In this document: positions 6,165 to 16,032 of the stretch, in pieces
Numbering within the stretch: the first letter of the stretch is position 1
Layout: the number at the start of each line of letters is the position of its first letter
Source of the DNA: a virus
Direction: 5' to 3' (one strand)
IMG/VR virus record: IMGVR_UViG_3300021959_000203
Location: 1 to 32,815 of that record
DNA: 32,815 nucleotides
The notes under the pieces: model-generated
The model's input: the letters and a program-made list of their open reading frames with translations, nothing else
What the model was told of the DNA's origin: nothing
Database searches by the model: none
Position numbers and translations under genes: made by a program

Positions 6165-9100
6165 ATGCCGTTAATAGGTAAATTTTTAGTACAACAAGAC
6201 TCAATAGGTAATAATAGTGTAGTTGCAAGTAAGATTGCTGCAAATGCTATTACAGCATCTGAGTTAGCTTTAAATTCTGTAACATCTGCAGAATTAGCAA
6301 CAAACTCTGTTGGAGCTGCAGAACTACAGTCAACTGCTGTAACTTCAGTAGCAGATAACTCTGTAACAGCTTCAGGCTTAGCTGCAAACTCAGTAGATAG
6401 TTCAGAAATTGTAACAGGTAGCATAGACACTATACATTTAGGAACAGGACAAGTTACAACAGCGAAGATAGCTGGAAATGCAATAACCTCAAATGAGATA
6501 GCACAAAATTCAATCGATTCAAGCGAAATTGCCACTGGTAGTATCGACACAATTCACATTTCGGCAAATGCAGTTACAACTGCAAAAATTGCTGGCAACA
6601 ACGTTACTGCTCATCATATTGCTGATGGGAGTATCACTAGCACTCAACTTGGAGCAAACAGTGTCGACAGCGCAGAATTAATTACTGGCTCGATCGATAC
6701 GATACATCTAGGAGGTTTACAGGTTACTACTGCAAAGATCGCTGCAGGAGCTGTCACAACTGCTAAACTCGGAGATAATTCTGTCACTTCAGCAAAAATA
6801 GTCAATGGAACAATCGCGACAGCAGACATTGCAGACCTTGCTATAACAAGTGGTAAGATAGCTGCAAACACAATTTTAACAGCAAACATTGCTGACAACA
6901 ATATAAACGGAACAAAAATAGCTACGGACAGTATAGTTGCAAGACATATAGCAGCTAACTCAGTAGATAGTGCAGAATTAGTCACTGGTAGTATAGATAC
7001 TATACACTTAGCAGATGACGCAGTTACTGGTGCTAAAATAGCAGGATTAACAGTTACTGGCCCAAACATTGCAAATAACGCAATAAATGCTAACAAGATT
7101 GGTACAGATGTTATCGATGCATCACACATAGCAGCTGGTGTAGTAGGTTCTTCAGAACTTGCCGCAAATTCAGTAGATTCATCAGAATTAGTAACTGGTA
7201 GTATAGATACTATACATATTGGAGCATTACAAGTAACAACAGCTAAAATAGCTGATAACAATGTTACTTCAGGAAAAATAGTAAGCGATGCTATTGTAGC
7301 AAGACATATTGCAGCTAATGCAATTAATAGTGTTGACTTTATTACAGACGGTTTAATTAACACTGCACAATTAGCAGGTAATTCAGTAGCAACTGCAAAA
7401 ATACAAGACAACGCAATAGATGCAACAAAAATAGCAGCGAATAGTGTAAGTGCAAGTGAATTAAAATCAGATGCACTAGGCGGACAAACCTTCTCAGGTA
7501 ACGTTGTGTTATCTGGAAACTTAACTGTATCAGGAACAACAACTACAGTATCTTCTACAACAATCAATGTAGCAGACCCACTTCTTGCACTAGCGACAAC
7601 AAATAGTTCAGCAGATACAGTTGACATAGGTTTTTATGGATTGTATGATGTAGGCGGAACAGATAAGTATACAGGTTTATTCAGAGATGCTGGAGATTCA
7701 GGTAAATGGAAAATATTTAAAGATTTACAGACTGTACCAACCACAGTAGTAAACACAGAAGGCACAGGCTATGCAACAGGAACACTTGTAGCAAACGTAG
7801 AAGGAAATGTTACAGGTAACTTAACAGGAACAGCAAGTGCAATAGCAAACAATACTGTAAATGCAAGTAAGATTGTAGCAGGAAGTATAACAACAGCTGA
7901 GATAGCAGCGAACACAATCTTAACAGCAAACATTGCAGATAACAATATAAATGGCACTAAGATTATAACTAATGCAATTGTAGGTAGACACATAACTGCA
8001 AATGCAGTAAATACTAGTGAGATAGCAACAGGAGCTGTAGCAGCCTTACAAATAGCAGGTGATGCAGTAGATGGAACAAAAATTGCAGATGATTCTATAG
8101 ATTCAGAACATTATGCAGATGGCAGTATTGATACAGCACATATTGGAAACGGACAAGTAACAGAAGGCAAATTAGCAGCAAACTCTGTAAACTCATCAAA
8201 AATAGTAAATGGCTCTATTGTAAACGCAGATTTAGCGAATAACTCTATAAGTGCTACTAAAATAGCAACTGGAGCAGTAGGTTCGTCAGAACTAGCTGCA
8301 AACTCAGTAGATTCAAGTGAATTAGTATCAGGTAGTATTGATGGAATACATTTAGCTGTAAACTCTGTTTCCTCTAGTAAAATAGCTGGTAATGCTGTCG
8401 GAACAAGCGAAATAGCACTTAACTCGGTCACAGCTGGCATAATTCAAAACGGTATTGTAGGAACAGATGAACTAGCTGATAACTGTGTAACAGCAGCTAA
8501 AATAGCAGATGGCTCTATTACTAGCACACAAATAGGCACTAATCAAGTAACTTCAAGCGAACTAGCAGGCAACTCTGTAGATAGTGCGGAGATAGTAAGC
8601 AGTAGTGTAGATACTATTCATATCACTAACTTAAATGTAACAAATGCTAAAATAGCAAACAATGCAATAACAAGTTCTAAAATAGCCGCTAACAATGTAG
8701 GTTCAAGTGAAATAGCAGCAAACGCTGTTGGATCAAGTGAGATTGCAAATAATTCTGTAACAACAACACAATTATCAAGTGCAGCACTTGGTGGTAAAAC
8801 AATGACAGGAAGTATTACATTTGGAGGAGATTTAGGGTTTGGTGGAAGCACATCTAATAAAGTAAATGTAGCAGGTAGCATAGGTATTCAAGACACTAAT
8901 CCACCACAAAAACTTCATATAGACGAAGTAGCTGGTATGGATGTAGGTTCAGGAACTTCTTCAGCAACAGCACAATTTACACTAGACACTTTTGCAGCAG
9001 CTACATTTAGAACTGCTAAGTACTTAGTACAAGTACATAATACAACAGACACAGATTTTCAAGCAATAGAAATTTTATTATTCCATGATGGCTCAGATGT

Positions 9101-9251
9101 TTACTTAACACAGTACGCATCTATATTTGAAAATGGAGCACAGGCAGCATTTGATGCAGACTTAGTATCAGGTAATATAAGGTTAAGAGTAACGCCAGCA
9201 AGTACAGATAGTATGGCATTTAAATTTATAAGGACAACAATAGAGGTATAA
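6165..9251 (+). CDS. Large decapeptide-repeat tail fibre/appendage protein, 1028 aa
   Basis: After about 16 residues the protein becomes decapeptide repeats of form [N/G/D]-x-[V/I]-x-x-x-x-[I/L]-x-x. One block of about 42 units (residues 17-435) and a second of exactly 31 units (residues 563-872) surround a non-repeat domain at about 440-560 with GFYGLYDVGG and GLFRDAGDSGKWKIF, a domain found in marine phage fibres. The last 150 residues (from about 880) are a globular beta domain ending LRVTPASTDSMAFKFIRTT, also typical of cyanophage-type structural proteins. The repeats suggest an elongated beta-solenoid or beta-stack. One base separates it from the previous gene and one from the next. The role in adsorption is inferred. 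Confidence 0.85.
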   Translation: MPLIGKFLVQQDSIGNNSVVASKIAANAITASELALNSVTSAELATNSVGAAELQSTAVTSVADNSVTASGLAANSVDSSEIVTGSIDTIHLGTGQVTTAKIAGNAITSNEIAQNSIDSSEIATGSIDTIHISANAVTTAKIAGNNVTAHHIADGSITSTQLGANSVDSAELITGSIDTIHLGGLQVTTAKIAAGAVTTAKLGDNSVTSAKIVNGTIATADIADLAITSGKIAANTILTANIADNNINGTKIATDSIVARHIAANSVDSAELVTGSIDTIHLADDAVTGAKIAGLTVTGPNIANNAINANKIGTDVIDASHIAAGVVGSSELAANSVDSSELVTGSIDTIHIGALQVTTAKIADNNVTSGKIVSDAIVARHIAANAINSVDFITDGLINTAQLAGNSVATAKIQDNAIDATKIAANSVSASELKSDALGGQTFSGNVVLSGNLTVSGTTTTVSSTTINVADPLLALATTNSSADTVDIGFYGLYDVGGTDKYTGLFRDAGDSGKWKIFKDLQTVPTTVVNTEGTGYATGTLVANVEGNVTGNLTGTASAIANNTVNASKIVAGSITTAEIAANTILTANIADNNINGTKIITNAIVGRHITANAVNTSEIATGAVAALQIAGDAVDGTKIADDSIDSEHYADGSIDTAHIGNGQVTEGKLAANSVNSSKIVNGSIVNADLANNSISATKIATGAVGSSELAANSVDSSELVSGSIDGIHLAVNSVSSSKIAGNAVGTSEIALNSVTAGIIQNGIVGTDELADNCVTAAKIADGSITSTQIGTNQVTSSELAGNSVDSAEIVSSSVDTIHITNLNVTNAKIANNAITSSKIAANNVGSSEIAANAVGSSEIANNSVTTTQLSSAALGGKTMTGSITFGGDLGFGGSTSNKVNVAGSIGIQDTNPPQKLHIDEVAGMDVGSGTSSATAQFTLDTFAAATFRTAKYLVQVHNTTDTDFQAIEILLFHDGSDVYLTQYASIFENGAQAAFDADLVSGNIRLRVTPASTDSMAFKFIRTTIEV
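6213..7469 (+). repeat. Decapeptide-coding repeat array, block 1 (about 42 units)
   Basis: A roughly 30-base period encodes units such as NSVDSAELVT, GSIDTIHLAD, DAVTGAKIAG. One or two units near 6330-6360 are irregular. Five copies of a larger 90-base, three-decapeptide module (NSVDS-E--TGSIDTIH---) occur in this block. DNA identity between copies is modest although the protein pattern is strict. Confidence 0.85.
7851..8780 (+). repeat. Decapeptide-coding repeat array, block 2 (31 units, no indels)
   Basis: The array is 930 bases, exactly 31 consecutive ten-codon units from NTVNASKIVA to NSVTTTQLSS with no insertion or deletion. Three further copies of the 30-residue module seen in block 1 occur here, in more diverged form. 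The segment from about 7909 to 7970 repeats the block 1 segment near 6859-6920 almost exactly at protein level. Confidence 0.85.
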
Positions 9252-9477: not shown

Positions 9478-12400
9478 ATGGCAATATATGTTAATGACAG
9501 TGGTACACTACGTCAGATATCCTTCCTTGCAGTCAATGATGGCGGAACAATACGAAGGGTCAATGAAGTATATGTAAATGATAACAGTAACTTAGCTGGC
9601 CCATTCTCTGCGGTTCATGAAACTGCTAGAAACACAGCAACTGTTAGAACTACAAACACAAATGACATTGTTACAACATTCAATACAACTACAGCTTTTG
9701 ATACAGACGTAGCTACAGTATCGGGATATAATACAAGCAGAGTAACAGAGTTCAATACATCTAGAAGTACTGAAACTAATTTAGTAACTACATTTGCAAC
9801 TACTACCGTTTTTGCTACAACAGTAAATACAACTACTGATTTTACTACTACCACTGCTTTCAATACAACCACAACGTTTAACACAACAATTACTACTGTT
9901 ACAGATTTTACAACTACAACGCAGTTTAATACAACAACAACGTTTAATACAAACACAACTACAACTACTGATTTTACTACTACCACTGCGTTTAATACAA
10001 CCACAACATTTAACACAACAATTGCAACCACTACAGTATTTAGTACTGTTACTGCTTTTAATACTACTACAACGTATAATACTACACAGGGTACAACTAC
10101 AGCATTTAATACAACTACTACTTTTACCACAACTACAACATTTGATACTAATACTAGTACAACTACAGCGTTTAATACGACTACTACTTTTACCACAACA
10201 ACAACATTTAATACAAGTAAAAGCACAACTACAGCATTTAATACAACTACTACTTTTGAAACTACAACAGTATTTGAGACTAGCTTAAGTACAACTACAG
10301 CGTATAATACAACTACTACCTTTAGTACAACGACAACGTTTAATACAACACTTACGACTACAACTGATTTTACTACTACTACAACATTTGAGACTAATTT
10401 AACTACAACAACTGCGTATGAAACTACTACTACTTTTACAACATTCTTTGATACAGTAATCTCTACAAGTAGACTTAGTGAGTTTACTAACAATACAGCT
10501 TTTGCTACAACAAGAACAACAACATTTGGTACTGTTACTGCTTATGCAGATAACACTTCATTTGCTACAACAAGAACAACAACATTCGGTACTGTCACTG
10601 CTTATGCAGACAATACCTCATTTGCCACAACGAGAACAACAACATTTGGTACTGTTACTGCTTATGCAGACAACACATCATTTGCTACTACAAGAGATAC
10701 AACGTATGATACTGTATCTACTTTCGTAGTAAGTACAAGTTATACAACTACTCAAAATACTAATACGAGTAGAAACACTGCATTGGCAGCTGTAAATACT
10801 AATTATACTACTACTCAAAATACTAATACAAGTAGGAATACTGCGCTGGCCGTTGTAAATACTTCATATGATACTACTCAAAGTACTAATACTGTAAGAA
10901 ACACTGCGTTAGCTGCTGTAAATACTTCATATAATACTACTCAAAGTACAAATACTTCTAGAAACACTGCATTGGCCGCTGTAAATACTACATATGATAC
11001 TACTCAAAGTACAAATACGAGTAGAAACACTGCGTTAGCTGCTGTAAATACATCATATACTACTACTCAAAGTACAAATACGAGTAGAAACACTGCATTG
11101 GCAGCTGTAAATACTAATACTATAAGAAGCACAAATACTTCTAGAAGTACTGGCTTCACGAATAGTACATCTTACAATACAGCTTTTGCTACTAATACGT
11201 CAAGAAGTACAGGGTTTACAAATAGTACATCTTACAATACAGCTTTTGCTACTAATACATCAAGAAGTACAGGGTTTACAAATAGTACATCTTACAATAC
11301 AGCTTTCGCTACTAATACATCAAGAACATCAACGTTTACAAACAGCACAACAAGAAATACATCGTTTGGAACGAATACATCATACGCAACAGCATTTGCA
11401 ACTAATACAGCAAGAGCTACAGGTTTTACTGCAAACACAACTAGAAACACTAATACAGCTAGAGGCACAAATACTTCTAGAAGTACTGGCTTTACAAATA
11501 ACACCTCTAGAATAACAACCTTTTCAGCTAATACGGGCTTTACGAACAATACCACAAGAGGTACAAATACATCAAGAAGTACAGGATTTACAAATAATAC
11601 TAACACTGCAAGAACAACAGCGTATACAGATAATACAGGATTTACAAATAACACCGCTAGAAATACAAATACTGCGAGAAATACTAATACTGTAAGAGCA
11701 AGTGGTTCATTTGCCTCTACATCTTTTTTAACAAATACTGCAAGAACAACAACAACTGCTTTTACCTACACTTACTTTACTTATAGTGGTGGTTATGTAC
11801 AGGTAATTGCGGAGTCTACTGATTACGCAGTAAGTAATACTGATACAGCATTCCAGAACAATACTTCTAGAAACACAAACACAAGTTGGAATACTGGTTT
11901 TACAAACAGTACAGGATTTACAAATAGTACATCATTTGCTACTAATACAGCTAGAGGTACAAATACGTCAAGAAGTACAGGATTTACTAATAGCACAAAT
12001 ACTGCAAGAACAACAGCATACACAGATAATACATCATTTGCTACTAACACAGCTAGAGGTACAAATACTTCTAGAAGTACATCATTTGCTACTAACACAG
12101 CAAGAACAACAGAATACACAGATAATACAGGCTTTACTAATGCAACTTCATTTGGAACTAATACATCAAGAAGTACATCATTTACAAATAATACAACAAG
12201 AGTAACAGAAGATTTAGCAGGTACAACAAGAAGTACAGCTTATAATACTGCTACAAGTAGACTAACTGCGTACACAGATAATACTTCTCAAGCTACAACA
12301 AGAAATACAAACACTGCTAGAACAACAGCATACACAGATAATACCTCTCAAGCTACAACAAGAAATACAAATACTGCGAGAGTATCAACATACACAGATA

Positions 12401-14055
12401 ATACTTCTCAAGCTACAACAAGAAATACTAACACAGCAAGAGTAACAGCATATGTAGATAACACAGGTTTTACAAACTCAACAAATACAAGTAGATTAAC
12501 TGCTTATGTAGATAATACATCATTTGCTACAACAAGAAGTACCAATACGAGTATAACAACAACCTTCGCAGCTAATACATCATTTGCTACAAGTAGAAGT
12601 ACCAACACAAGTATAACAACAACCTTTGCAGCTAATACATCATTTGCAACAACAAGAAGTACCAATACGAGTATAAGCACAGGATTTACAAATAATACAT
12701 CATTTGCTACAACAAGAAGTACCAATACGAGTATAACAACATCTTATGTAGATGCCACAGCGTTTACTACAAGTAGAAGTACCAACACGAGTATAACAAC
12801 ATCTTATGTAGATGCTACAGCATTTACCACTACACGAAATACTAATACAAGTAGAGGAACAGGTACAACTCAATCAACTAGTTATACTACTACACAGAGT
12901 ACTAATACAAGTAGAACAAGTAATACTTCACAATCAACTAGTTATACTACTACACAAAGTACTAATACAAGTAGAACAAGTAATACTTCACAGTCAACTA
13001 GTTATACTACTACACAGAGTACTAATACAAGTAGAACAAGTAATACTGCACAGTCAACCAGTTATACTACGTCACAAACTACTAATACTAGCAGAACTAC
13101 TACGTTTGAAACAGCATATCAAACTTCTAGGTTATCCTCAAGAAGTACAGGTACAAGCAGAGCTACAACTACAATATTTAACACAGCTAGAGGAACTGTT
13201 ACAGACAGAGGTACAACCACAACATTTAATACTACTAGACTATCAGATACAACTAGAACAACTGGAACAAGCAGAGCAACAGACACAACATTTAATACTT
13301 CCAGAGTATCAGATACAACAAGAGCAACAGAAACTAGTAGAGCTACAAGTACAGTATTTAATACAACAAGAGCAACAGATACAACAAGAGCAACTATTAC
13401 AAGTAGAGCAACTACAACAACATACGCTACTACTCAAGGAACTCTTACAACTAGAAGCACAGGTACAAGTAAAAGTACTACAACTACGTTCAATACTAAT
13501 ACTACGACAGGTACAAGTAAAAATACACTTACTTCAAAAAGTACAATATCTACATTCAATACTTCTAGATTATCAGAAACAACTAGGGGTACAGTTACAG
13601 TCAGAGATACAGTCTCTACATTTGAGACGTCTAGAGCATCCCTCACAAGTAGAGGAACCGTTACTTCACAGAATACAGTATCTACCTTTAATACATCAAG
13701 AGCTTCGTTAACAAGTAGAGGTACAGAAACTAGTAGAAGTACTACATCTACATTCAATACTTCAAGGACTACAGACACGACTAGAACTACTGTATTTGCA
13801 ACTTCAACAGTATTTAATACAACTAGAACTACTGTATTTGCAACAGGTAGAACTACTACCACTACGATTGAAACAAGTAGACTATCAGATACAACAAGAA
13901 CAACGACACCTACAACTACAACTACTTTTGATACTTCAACTGTAGTATTTGAAAGAATTACTGCATCAGCAGCTGGAACAATCTTCGACACCGAAGTATC
14001 TAGTGCAGATGCGTTTAGCGCGTCCTACTGGGATGGTAATCAGTGGACAGAATAA
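9478..14055 (+). CDS. Giant Thr/Asn/Ser-rich repeat protein, probable tail fibre or surface filament, 1525 aa
   Basis: The N-terminal 38 residues contain three VND repeats (YVNDSGTLR, VNDGGTIRR, YVNDNSN) seen at the start of marine phage structural proteins. From about residue 45 to 1490 the protein is a near-continuous repeat of Thr, Asn, Ser, Ala, Arg and aromatics, with almost no Cys, Pro or His. Bulky residues (F, Y, R, Q, I) are spaced 4 or 6 apart with Thr/Ser between. The repeat length is 22 at the start (about 115-330), 20 or 21 in the middle and 22 at the end (about 1220-1485). A non-repeat island (YTYFTYSGGYVQV) falls at the midpoint (residues 762-788). It ends SYWDGNQWTE, probably a small cap. 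NT[ST] and NST sequons are dense. A virion filament is inferred from context. Confidence 0.75.
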   Translation: MAIYVNDSGTLRQISFLAVNDGGTIRRVNEVYVNDNSNLAGPFSAVHETARNTATVRTTNTNDIVTTFNTTTAFDTDVATVSGYNTSRVTEFNTSRSTETNLVTTFATTTVFATTVNTTTDFTTTTAFNTTTTFNTTITTVTDFTTTTQFNTTTTFNTNTTTTTDFTTTTAFNTTTTFNTTIATTTVFSTVTAFNTTTTYNTTQGTTTAFNTTTTFTTTTTFDTNTSTTTAFNTTTTFTTTTTFNTSKSTTTAFNTTTTFETTTVFETSLSTTTAYNTTTTFSTTTTFNTTLTTTTDFTTTTTFETNLTTTTAYETTTTFTTFFDTVISTSRLSEFTNNTAFATTRTTTFGTVTAYADNTSFATTRTTTFGTVTAYADNTSFATTRTTTFGTVTAYADNTSFATTRDTTYDTVSTFVVSTSYTTTQNTNTSRNTALAAVNTNYTTTQNTNTSRNTALAVVNTSYDTTQSTNTVRNTALAAVNTSYNTTQSTNTSRNTALAAVNTTYDTTQSTNTSRNTALAAVNTSYTTTQSTNTSRNTALAAVNTNTIRSTNTSRSTGFTNSTSYNTAFATNTSRSTGFTNSTSYNTAFATNTSRSTGFTNSTSYNTAFATNTSRTSTFTNSTTRNTSFGTNTSYATAFATNTARATGFTANTTRNTNTARGTNTSRSTGFTNNTSRITTFSANTGFTNNTTRGTNTSRSTGFTNNTNTARTTAYTDNTGFTNNTARNTNTARNTNTVRASGSFASTSFLTNTARTTTTAFTYTYFTYSGGYVQVIAESTDYAVSNTDTAFQNNTSRNTNTSWNTGFTNSTGFTNSTSFATNTARGTNTSRSTGFTNSTNTARTTAYTDNTSFATNTARGTNTSRSTSFATNTARTTEYTDNTGFTNATSFGTNTSRSTSFTNNTTRVTEDLAGTTRSTAYNTATSRLTAYTDNTSQATTRNTNTARTTAYTDNTSQATTRNTNTARVSTYTDNTSQATTRNTNTARVTAYVDNTGFTNSTNTSRLTAYVDNTSFATTRSTNTSITTTFAANTSFATSRSTNTSITTTFAANTSFATTRSTNTSISTGFTNNTSFATTRSTNTSITTSYVDATAFTTSRSTNTSITTSYVDATAFTTTRNTNTSRGTGTTQSTSYTTTQSTNTSRTSNTSQSTSYTTTQSTNTSRTSNTSQSTSYTTTQSTNTSRTSNTAQSTSYTTSQTTNTSRTTTFETAYQTSRLSSRSTGTSRATTTIFNTARGTVTDRGTTTTFNTTRLSDTTRTTGTSRATDTTFNTSRVSDTTRATETSRATSTVFNTTRATDTTRATITSRATTTTYATTQGTLTTRSTGTSKSTTTTFNTNTTTGTSKNTLTSKSTISTFNTSRLSETTRGTVTVRDTVSTFETSRASLTSRGTVTSQNTVSTFNTSRASLTSRGTETSRSTTSTFNTSRTTDTTRTTVFATSTVFNTTRTTVFATGRTTTTTIETSRLSDTTRTTTPTTTTTFDTSTVVFERITASAAGTIFDTEVSSADAFSASYWDGNQWTE
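10501..10680 (+). repeat. Tandem 60-bp repeat, 3 copies
   Basis: Three nearly identical 60-base units encode FATTRTTTFGTVTAYADNTS, and a partial fourth follows. The few differences are mostly synonymous, which indicates recent duplication or gene conversion within the 1525-residue gene. Confidence 0.9.
10741..11118 (+). repeat. Tandem 63-bp repeat, 6 copies
   Basis: Six units of 63 bases (21 codons) start with Tyr and contain TTQ-TNTS-RNTALA-VNT. This is the only array in the gene with an odd residue period, equal to three heptads, and the only one with Leu and Val at regular positions. Copies differ at scattered, mostly third-base sites. Confidence 0.9.
11161..11340 (+). repeat. Tandem 60-bp repeat, 3 copies
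   Basis: Units at 11161, 11221 and 11281 encode NSTSYNTAFATNTSRSTGFT. The first two differ by a single base; the third differs at a few bases at its 3' end. This is the youngest-looking duplication in the window. Confidence 0.9.
12241..12480 (+). repeat. Tandem 60-bp repeat, about 4 copies
   Basis: Units of 60 bases encode NTART-AYTDNTSQATTR variants. The first and last copies are partly degenerate and the middle two are close to identical. Confidence 0.85.
12541..12840 (+). repeat. Tandem 60-bp repeat, 5 copies
   Basis: Five 60-base units start at 12541, 12601, 12661, 12721 and 12781. All contain STNTSI followed by a variable six-residue segment (TTTFAA, STGFTN, TTSYVD) and then FATTR or FTTSR. 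A constant core with a cassette-like variable part is visible. Confidence 0.9.
12841..13080 (+). repeat. Tandem 60-bp repeat, 4 copies
   Basis: Four 60-base units encode QSTSYTTTQSTNTSRTSNTS with few differences. Together with the preceding five units this makes 540 bases of uninterrupted 60-base periodicity. Confidence 0.9.
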
Positions 14056-14076: not shown

Positions 14077-14244
14077 ATGAAATTACAAGATAAGGATATT
14101 ACTCCTAGATTTGTTAATGATAAATTAGAAAGCTTAGGACAAGCTCTTTTTGACTCAATACATCAATTTGAAGAAAGATTAAAAGAACAAGAGGTACATA
14201 TAGTAGACCTTAAAAAACAAATTAGAGATTTAAAAAATGGGTAA
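14077..14244 (+). CDS. Small coiled-coil protein, 55 aa
   Basis: An ATG at 14077 follows a good ribosome site (AAAGGA at 14065-14070, six bases before) and opens a 55-codon frame beginning MKLQDKDITPRF. Residues 14-52 are strongly helical with heptad-like Leu/Ile spacing (LGQALFDSIHQFEERLKEQE, IVDLKKQIRDLK), so a dimeric or trimeric coiled coil is likely. The layout is SlyX-like in size and charge, but I do not claim homology. The stop lies inside the next gene (eight-base overlap at 14237), so the two are probably co-translated. It may be a fibre assembly helper or trimerisation peptide, by position only. Confidence 0.7.
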   Translation: MKLQDKDITPRFVNDKLESLGQALFDSIHQFEERLKEQEVHIVDLKKQIRDLKNG

Positions 14245-15115
14245 ATTAGTCCCTCTCTCTAATGTAGAGGAGTTAGGAGATTTTAGTACTCATATATACA
14301 AGTCAGGATCTTGCACTAGACCTAAAGAAGATTTAGATGAGTTATCTAGAATGAAGAAAGAATTAATACCCGAACAACGAGAAGGTATTAATTTTGATTA
14401 TGATTTGTGGTTTAACACTAACGAAACAAGAACTATTAGAAGTTGGTTATACACAGATTTTTTGGGTGCAGGTATATATCTAAGAGTAAATTCTGTACTC
14501 ATAAATGATAAATTGATGCGTGTAATTGCCGATTCAGATATAGAAATAGATACTGCTAGAATAGATAAGATTAAAAATAATTTAAGAAATAAGTATCATT
14601 TAAAATATACTGAAGAAGAATATGATAAAGTTGTATTTCCTCCAGGAACAAACTTACTAACTAAACAAACTTGTGTGCATTGGGGTAGAATAAAACAATG
14701 TATAGACGAAGGGTATGTAATAAAACCACATCCAATTACCACCGATTTAATGGTTGCTAAATTTAAAAGAAAGTTCGGAAAAGATAAAGTTTTAGATAAA
14801 AGAAGTGGAGGCATGGAATTACTTATGAAGTGTTCTAATGTAGCAACAATGCCTAATAGTGAAATGGGACTTATCGCACTCTTACTTAAGAAAAACTTAA
14901 GAATGATAAGCTACTCAAAAAAAGAAAGAGAAAAAAGTTTATTAACATATGAAAGTATTTATCATGCTTGTGGAAGTACAAATGGGTACAAAGCAATCGA
15001 AAAAATATTCTCAGCAAGGAACTCAGGAATGATATTTTCATTCGATGAGGATGCACAACAAAGACTAGATTTATATATAAATAATTTTTGGGATTATAGG
15101 AAACATACAAAATGA
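14237..15115 (+). CDS. Putative polysaccharide/GT-B-like glycosyltransferase, 292 aa
   Basis: A KPHP motif at residues 163-166 follows a predicted helix, and about 40 residues later comes NVATMPNSEMGLIALLLKKN. This pair (HP motif, then a Ser-rich loop before a helix) is found in GT-B-fold capsule synthesis enzymes and polysialyltransferase-like proteins, where it binds the nucleotide-sugar. The N-terminal half (WLYTDFLGAGIYLRVNSVLIN) is not recognised. No signal peptide or membrane helix is seen. The gene overlaps the 55-residue gene by eight bases and the next gene by four (ATGA), and starts a group of glycan-type genes at the end of the virion operon. It could instead be a non-catalytic GT-B-like protein. 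Confidence 0.45.
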   Translation: MGKLVPLSNVEELGDFSTHIYKSGSCTRPKEDLDELSRMKKELIPEQREGINFDYDLWFNTNETRTIRSWLYTDFLGAGIYLRVNSVLINDKLMRVIADSDIEIDTARIDKIKNNLRNKYHLKYTEEEYDKVVFPPGTNLLTKQTCVHWGRIKQCIDEGYVIKPHPITTDLMVAKFKRKFGKDKVLDKRSGGMELLMKCSNVATMPNSEMGLIALLLKKNLRMISYSKKEREKSLLTYESIYHACGSTNGYKAIEKIFSARNSGMIFSFDEDAQQRLDLYINNFWDYRKHTK

Positions 15116-16032
15116 TTGAATTAGTACATACATGGAAGCCAGAGTGGAGTTATTTTACTATCGCTTCTTTAATTGATAAAGACGAAGAATATCGTCTACA
15201 TCTCTATGTGGAGGAAGAACACTATGCCGACTTACCAATTAATTGGATATTTGACAATATTCCAAATGTAAGGATATATGAAGCATATTGGAAAAAAGAT
15301 TATGCATCTAGAGCTATTCAACATCTTAGATTACATTGGAAAGATAAAGGGCTACACAAAAGAATACTTTATGCAGGTGGCAATAGAATATTTTTAAAGA
15401 GTGGATGGACAGATGAAATACCAAACGAATCTTTTTTCCAAACAAAACTATCTCACTTATCTAGAAAGAAAGTATTTGTTGGACACAAGCAATTTGCATC
15501 TTATTATGGAATACTAGATTTTGCTAAAGCAGACATGCCTGCAAACTGGGACACTGACTTTTTTATGTTGAATTACGACTTACTCAAAGATCTAAATGAT
15601 AATGAATTATTTTATTCTAGAGGATTCTATAATGACTATGATAGCAGAGTACTAGCTACAACAAATCAGTTTTTCTTTACAAAATTACACGAAAAAGAAC
15701 ATGGAGTACTTCCTAGATATATGAATGGTAAGAGTGACTTATTAATACAATGGGATGCACTACCGTCAAAAGAATATATAAACTATAATGTGATGTTAAG
15801 AAAATCATGGAGTATAGCACTACCGACAAAGGCACTATCAAATGGATATGCTAAAGTAAGTACAGGAACTCAACTATCAACTCCTTGGGAGTTATATGCT
15901 CAACTTATACCTAAAATTCCTGTTAACTTTAGGAATGCACGAGTATGTGAAAACTTATCATATAAAACAAATAGACAAAAACAAACTGCAAGAAAATTAA
16001 TAGAAGTTGGATATAGATTAGGAAAACTTTAA
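15112..16032 (+). CDS. Hypothetical protein in glycosyltransferase island, 306 aa
   Basis: No family is recognised with confidence. The opening MIELVHTWKPEWSYFTIASL followed by a charged, aromatic region resembles the start of GT-A-type enzymes. RILYAGGNRIFLKSGW (about residues 84-99) looks like the strand that in such enzymes carries the DxD motif, but no DxD is present here. Later segments (DTDFFMLNYDLLKDL) resemble GT8-like proteins weakly. It starts in an ATGA overlap with the HP-motif gene. Its stop lies 15 bases inside the opposed gene on the other strand, where the two transcription units meet. A glycan role is suggested only by neighbourhood. Confidence 0.4.
   Translation: MIELVHTWKPEWSYFTIASLIDKDEEYRLHLYVEEEHYADLPINWIFDNIPNVRIYEAYWKKDYASRAIQHLRLHWKDKGLHKRILYAGGNRIFLKSGWTDEIPNESFFQTKLSHLSRKKVFVGHKQFASYYGILDFAKADMPANWDTDFFMLNYDLLKDLNDNELFYSRGFYNDYDSRVLATTNQFFFTKLHEKEHGVLPRYMNGKSDLLIQWDALPSKEYINYNVMLRKSWSIALPTKALSNGYAKVSTGTQLSTPWELYAQLIPKIPVNFRNARVCENLSYKTNRQKQTARKLIEVGYRLGKL

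Follow-up and report, generated by a model that had tools for sequence, protein, structure and literature searches.

Results and discussion

The window analysed here is a stretch of 32,815 nucleotides of viral DNA (IMG/VR record IMGVR_UViG_3300021959_000203) that encodes a giant Thr-rich protein. A preliminary description of the sequence reported that the bulky residues of this protein follow one another at distances of 4 or 6 positions, and this raises the question of what kind of structure such a spacing specifies. As judged from its sequence, the gene product is likely to be a lateral (side) tail fibre in a large long-tailed phage of the lambda type, with a chain that would run out to a hypervariable tip and back antiparallel to itself (for coordinates see Table 1).

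Table 1. Features of the fibre gene and its upstream neighbour (residue numbers refer to the window protein).
Feature	Positions	Strand	Basis
Whole gene; Thr-rich (37%) fibre protein, 1525 aa	9478..14055	+	Open frame; family of 60+ IMG/VR loci, gene order kept
N-cap, residues 1–44; three VNDxGxLR-like units, presumed virion attachment	9478..9609	+	78% mean pairwise identity, 20 members
N-arm (putative outgoing strand), residues 51–740	9628..11697	+	Antiparallel pairing with C-arm
N-arm basal zone, residues 66–320; 22-residue units F6F6F4x6	9673..10437	+	Local period 22; opposite the C-arm 22-residue zone
N-side joint, residues 321–338; 22/20 border, partner of C-side joint	10438..10491	+	Register i+j = 1542
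21-residue units opposite C-arm 20-residue units; extra Ala after 436, 457, 478, 499, 520	10729..11121	+	Duplex indel list
Tip region, residues 741–807, centre 774; presumed receptor-binding	11698..11898	+	Lowest trigram likelihood; 34% identity; rung pairing lost
C-arm (putative return strand), residues 808–1484	11899..13929	+	Duplex with N-arm
C-side joint, residues 1204–1222 (FETAYQTSRLSSR), strongly conserved	13087..13143	+	Invariant T1204, T1208, T1212, T1216, S1217, R1222
C-arm basal zone, residues 1223–1477; 22-residue units, R/R/R/F rungs	13144..13908	+	Local period 22; opposite 66–320
C-cap, residues 1486–1525; FERITAxxxGTIFDTEV...WDGxxW	13933..14052	+	72% mean pairwise identity
Tail-fibre-like gene (phrog_892), upstream, adjacent in every case	6165..9251	+	PHROG E=2e-104; synteny

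Spacing of the bulky residues

Residues 60–1490 of the window protein contain 264 Phe, Tyr, Arg, Gln, Ile or Trp residues, separated by 263 consecutive gaps. The gap is 6 in 127 cases and 4 in 89, with 47 of other sizes; gaps of 4 or 6 therefore make up 216/263 (82%), compared with 17% in shuffled cores (highest of 200 shuffles, 22%). The reported spacing is thus real and very strong, and the unit patterns given with it were also right, the 22-mers reading F6F6F4x6 and the 20-mers F4R4F6Y6 and R4F6Y4F6. All relatives that were examined have the 4/6 gaps, at frequencies of 46–90% versus 17% after shuffling.

The autocorrelation of the bulky residues, relative to expectation, was 1.94 at lag 4, 2.74 at lag 6, 3.04 at lag 10, 2.60 at lag 16, 2.12 at lag 20 and 2.06 at lag 22. 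Even lags were all favoured; odd lags up to 7 gave only 0.14–0.21 of expectation (lag 3, 0.16; lag 7, 0.14) and lag 11 gave 0.35. A single parity holds 239 of the 264 bulky residues. This check, proposed in the preliminary description, revealed no peak at 3, 3.5 or 7, and the signal at 3–4 and 7 that characterizes a heptad coiled coil was missing. The depletion at lag 7 together with the two-residue periodicity argues for an extended β conformation over a heptad coiled coil, and supports the suggestion that the bulky residues and alternate Thr share one face.

Two features go beyond what had been described. Units of 21 residues occupy approximately residues 418–548, each containing one extra residue that flips the parity every time, and residue 774 is the centre of a mirror symmetry in the spacing pattern. 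The local repeat lengths along the chain are 22, 20, 21, 20 and mixed, and this order recurs reversed in the second half; in relatives, too, repeat periods are equal from arm to arm when measured by distance from the base (for example, 22-26-20-18 in both arms of L045). The 4/6 spacing is the visible half of this larger mirror pattern.

Antiparallel pairing of the two arms

The N-arm was aligned with the reversed C-arm by scoring each position only as bulky or not bulky, and the residue types were inspected afterwards. In the window protein, 111 of 112 rungs placed an aromatic residue opposite Arg, Lys or Gln (hetero rungs), with one aromatic–aromatic and no polar–polar pair. Across 20 members, 1458 of 1489 rungs were hetero, the 31 homo rungs comprising 12 aromatic and 19 polar pairs. 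Nine held-out members, for which the tip was fixed at the midpoint and mostly a single indel was present, gave 693/695 hetero rungs with one aromatic and one polar pair, and the count for 33 members, which are related sequences, was 2502 hetero versus 20 homo. Parallel alignment as a control yielded 30–62% hetero rungs in the 20-member set and 39–66% in the held-out set. Swapping arms between proteins gave 63 ± 11%, and the same procedure applied to other fibre proteins gave 22–50%.

The aromatic residue is not confined to one arm. In the window protein the N-arm contributes the aromatic to 72 rungs and the C-arm to 39, and this balance is reversed in L056. Double flips, such as Y–R to R–Y, were seen five times and broken rungs three times. 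Pairing was weaker in L016 (87%), and L033, L040, L049 and L051 had fewer matched rungs or more aliphatic pairs. On the second face, Asn–Asn pairs were enriched 2.2-fold.

Register, bulges and paired indels

The register of the window duplex is nearly constant, with i+j equal to 1542 for residues 65–436 and 1548 for residues 550–740. Only single-residue shifts occur, and one register extends across hundreds of residues; five of these shifts are the extra residues of the 21-mers, and i+j rises by one at each of the five extra Ala. The parity breaks can thus be read as single-residue bulges. The conserved joint (321–338 opposite 1204–1222) marks where the basal zone of 22-residue units gives way to the distal zone. 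Because indels accumulate, a fixed register extended far from the tip underestimates pairing beyond approximately 55 residues, and near-tip bins alone were used for it.

Relatives mostly gain or lose units at mirror positions of both arms. Comparison of the window protein with L004 (90% identical) revealed a loss of 21 residues at 439 and of 20 at approximately 1091–1106 (mirror position 1094), and a second pair of 20 residues at 600 and 20 at 923 (mirror position 933). L029 and L039 differ by 10 residues at 379 and 10 at 629 (mirror position 632), and paired differences were also observed for L031/L136 (88 + 88), L136/L142 (20 + 20) and L054/L059 (12 + 12 and 10 + 10). Exceptions were L008/L009 (20 residues in one arm), L016/L017 (40 and 20, of opposite sense) and L101/L108 (20), all pairs that are 96–100% identical. 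Tandem units easily collapse in short-read assembly, and the unpaired indels may reflect such collapse, real polymorphism or slack. Contigs L005, L042, L050, L052, L053 and L062 stop within the fibre gene, which is expected if tandem repeats break short-read assembly; other arm lengths may suffer from the same effect.

A variable island at the centre

In members of very different length, Thr-poor stretches are found only near the middle of the chain, and the tip region of the window protein (residues 741–807) is not Thr-rich. To locate the island we used a leave-group-out trigram model that is blind to position and scored the least likely 35-residue window. Earlier detectors based on minimum T+S+N or low T placed the island at the centre in most members and misplaced a few, and the trigram likelihood was used instead. 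The least repeat-like window fell at 0.483–0.515 of the cap-to-cap distance in 23 of 24 full-length members, which have arms of 374–734 residues, with lengths differing twofold between lineages. As these members are related, a binomial probability for this count exaggerates its weight. The exception, L019, has a weak likelihood minimum elsewhere, and its homologous island is located near residue 637 of 1254.

Mean pairwise identity among 20 members was lowest in the tip (34%), compared with 54–65% in the arms and 78% and 72% in the N- and C-caps. The pairing code is gone within approximately 30 residues of the centre, and Glu (about 6-fold), Tyr (3-fold), Gly and Pro are over-represented among the central 41 residues. 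Tip types vary by lineage and include aromatic, Gly-rich and acidic forms. The acidic tips of L054, L059, L132, L033, L101 and L108 contain DPE/N-G-T or EEE runs that recall calcium-binding loops. A search of six records, possibly fragments, for a diversity-generating retroelement behind the tip variation found no reverse transcriptase.

The fibre family and its phages

A scan of viral contigs in IMG/VR identified 63 loci of the fibre family, and a second scan added more. Full-length members have 807–1547 residues with conserved N- and C-caps. The neighbourhood is fixed: LtfC-like and fibre-like genes are found upstream with the phrog_892 fibre gene adjoining, and two fast-evolving genes followed by ribonucleotide reductase are found downstream. 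The match of the LtfC-like gene was below the cut-off. On the 104-kb contig of a relative (G005), genes for terminase, portal, head, major tail and tape measure proteins are followed by L-, I/K- and J-like genes, a fibre gene and then the family gene, which thus closes a lambda-like tail module, as would be expected of a side fibre gene. These head and tail genes indicate that the family belongs to lambda-like long-tailed phages, which are uncultured and probably marine.

BLAST and HMM searches with the Thr-rich fibre gave no match in Pfam, PHROG, PDB or GenBank phages, in part because low-complexity filters mask its core. No relatives were found in the genome contigs searched, and arm sequences used to look for relatives with other caps recovered the same family alone. 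A further probe, phrog_16, was dropped as poor, having matches in all controls.

A proposed out-and-back fibre

The antiparallel register of the arms, their equal lengths, the central variable island and the mostly mirror-paired indels are demonstrated by the statistics of the sequences. We infer in addition a β-strand geometry, pairing partners within the same fibre, a trimeric assembly and receptor binding by the tip. In the proposed fibre, the chain would leave the virion at the conserved N-terminal cap and run outward as an extended β-strand of approximately 690 residues to the hypervariable tip (about 55–65 residues), where it would turn and where the receptor would be bound. The return strand, antiparallel and of equal length, would bring the conserved C-terminal cap back to the base. 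The strands would be kept in register by rungs at intervals of 4 or 6 residues, each consisting of a Phe or Tyr of one strand against an Arg, Lys or Gln (sometimes Ile or Leu) of its partner on the same face, with Thr–Thr pairs between the rungs and small Thr, Ser, Asn and Ala residues on the opposite face. Even spacing puts all rungs on one face, which would explain the 4/6 grammar, and the changing repeat length, reversed order and aromatic–R/K/Q pairing together argue for an out-and-back antiparallel ribbon rather than a solenoid or a one-way chain. By analogy with T4 gp37, three such hairpins may form a six-stranded trimeric needle, and an arm of 676 residues, at about 3.3 Å each, would give the extended fibre a length of approximately 220 nm.

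Among viral attachment fibres, an out-and-back chain with both ends at the base would be an unusual arrangement. A self-complementary polypeptide, with halves of 330–700 residues that recognize each other through a two-letter code and evolve by matched indels, probably represents a structural class not described before; we found no description of a mirror-paired fibre of this kind in the open-access literature, which omits most subscription papers. AlphaFold2 monomer prediction gave no confident model in support of the hairpin: for a tip-centred fragment of the window protein the mean pLDDT was 40, and DSSP gave nothing. For full-length L136 the mean pLDDT was 33, and the model contained strands and no helix of at least 4 residues; its hairpin of residues 398–404 and 418–424 about the centre at 411 is a faint hint.

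The main rival is an antiparallel homodimer, in which full-length chains would lie head to tail with residue i opposite residue 1542–1548 minus i and no turn, giving a filament about twice as long with an N-cap and a C-cap at each end. This arrangement predicts an identical pairing table and equal arms, but it leaves unexplained both the hypervariable, unpaired central island with its enrichment in Glu, Tyr, Gly and Pro and the presence of identical caps at both ends of a fibre on a phage tail, and the low-confidence L136 model would place a β-hairpin exactly at the centre. We therefore regard the homodimer as unlikely. Phage fibre shafts are mostly one-way, and Thr-rich β repeats are frequent among them. 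A one-way trimeric shaft (triple β-helix, β-spiral or solenoid), with the mirror order a by-product of repeat duplication, nevertheless gives no account of held-out rungs that are more than 99% hetero in antiparallel and near chance in parallel alignment, and predicts neither the mirror-paired indels nor the conserved C-cap; it is strongly disfavoured and seems quite improbable. Low-complexity filler without defined structure, patterned by DNA repeat slippage, would fit the abundant tandem DNA repeats, but slippage cannot give distant arms complementary residue classes, hetero rungs in divergent relatives or paired indels, leaving this explanation with very little probability. An α-helical coiled coil, heptad or hendecad, has next to none: coiled coils are frequent in fibres and 22 is 2 × 11, but lags 7 and 11 are depleted with all even lags favoured, Thr makes up 37–40% of the residues, the low-confidence models have no helix of at least 4 residues, and the preliminary description's own test refutes it.

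Comparison with known fibres

The distal needle of T4 gp37 (domains D10–D11, residues 811–1026) is trimeric with both termini at the knob, and consists of a stem (882–931 and 960–1009, 50 residues each) and a variable receptor-binding tip (932–959) at the turn (PMC9603124). At the sequence level, the fibre studied here resembles it in its proposed out-and-back chain with two equal arms and a tip at the turn, and in having a conserved stem and a diversified tip (34% identity versus 78% and 72% in the caps and 54–65% in the arms). Unlike in T4, the arms have approximately 330–700 residues rather than 50, making the window fibre about 14 times longer, the putative hairpin is almost the whole protein, and the phage group is different. 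The T4 stem is likewise rich in Ser, Thr and Gly but has many HxH motifs; the iron-binding His-x-His motifs were not found here, with one His in 1525 residues, and aromatic–R/K/Q rungs are present in their place. Because this motif is missing, no homology to the needle was detected in PDB, Pfam or PHROG, and the trimeric state is inferred, we do not class the protein as a T4 gp37-type needle.

Like the L-shaped side fibres of the lambda/T5 type, the protein is large and is encoded beside J, tail assembly, minor tail and tape measure genes with an LtfC-like gene (below the cut-off) nearby; unlike them, it matches no PHROG, Pfam or GenBank phage protein in sequence, and its C-terminus is a conserved cap where theirs is a variable receptor domain. 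The likeness to ice-binding β-solenoids or ordinary shafts drawn in the preliminary description was not supported. Thr at alternate, β-favouring positions is shared with TxT β-solenoids and triple β-spirals, but there is no constant coil length (periods 22, 20, 21, 20 and mixed) and no one-way repeat, since the order reverses in the second half and the halves pair antiparallel.

The usual rule is that the C-terminus of a fibre binds the receptor. The out-and-back chain would reverse this rule and explain the conserved termini and variable middle, and host-range regions in these uncultured phages could thus be located. Fibre architecture becomes readable from sequence, with register, bulges, joint and tip assignable without a structure. 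The pattern also raises the evolutionary question of how two repeat arrays far apart in the chain come to expand and contract in step, and its pairing code provides a natural scheme for the design of long β-ribbons.

Neighbouring and internal reading frames

Two long frames lie inside the Thr-rich gene, one Val-rich (9615–10493, minus strand) and one Gln/Leu-rich (12812–13711, plus strand, other frame); both arise from the repetition of Thr codons and are not genes. Near the middle of the phrog_892 protein (6165–9251, 1028 residues), a domain without repeats spans approximately residues 430–560. The protein gave 22% in the pairing procedure, hence no pairing code, although the alphabet used is not one suited to its symmetry. 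The two fast-evolving genes at 14237–16032 immediately follow the fibre gene in every case. Relatives of the first (phrog_26179) occur in Caulobacter, Stenotrophomonas and Vibrio phages, and its product, judged by eye, resembles a sugar-transfer enzyme; a role in fibre modification or assembly would be a guess. On the G005 contig, a similar gene start, MNLFYLD...KCAE.HVD, occurs near both ends (141–734 and 103426–104025).
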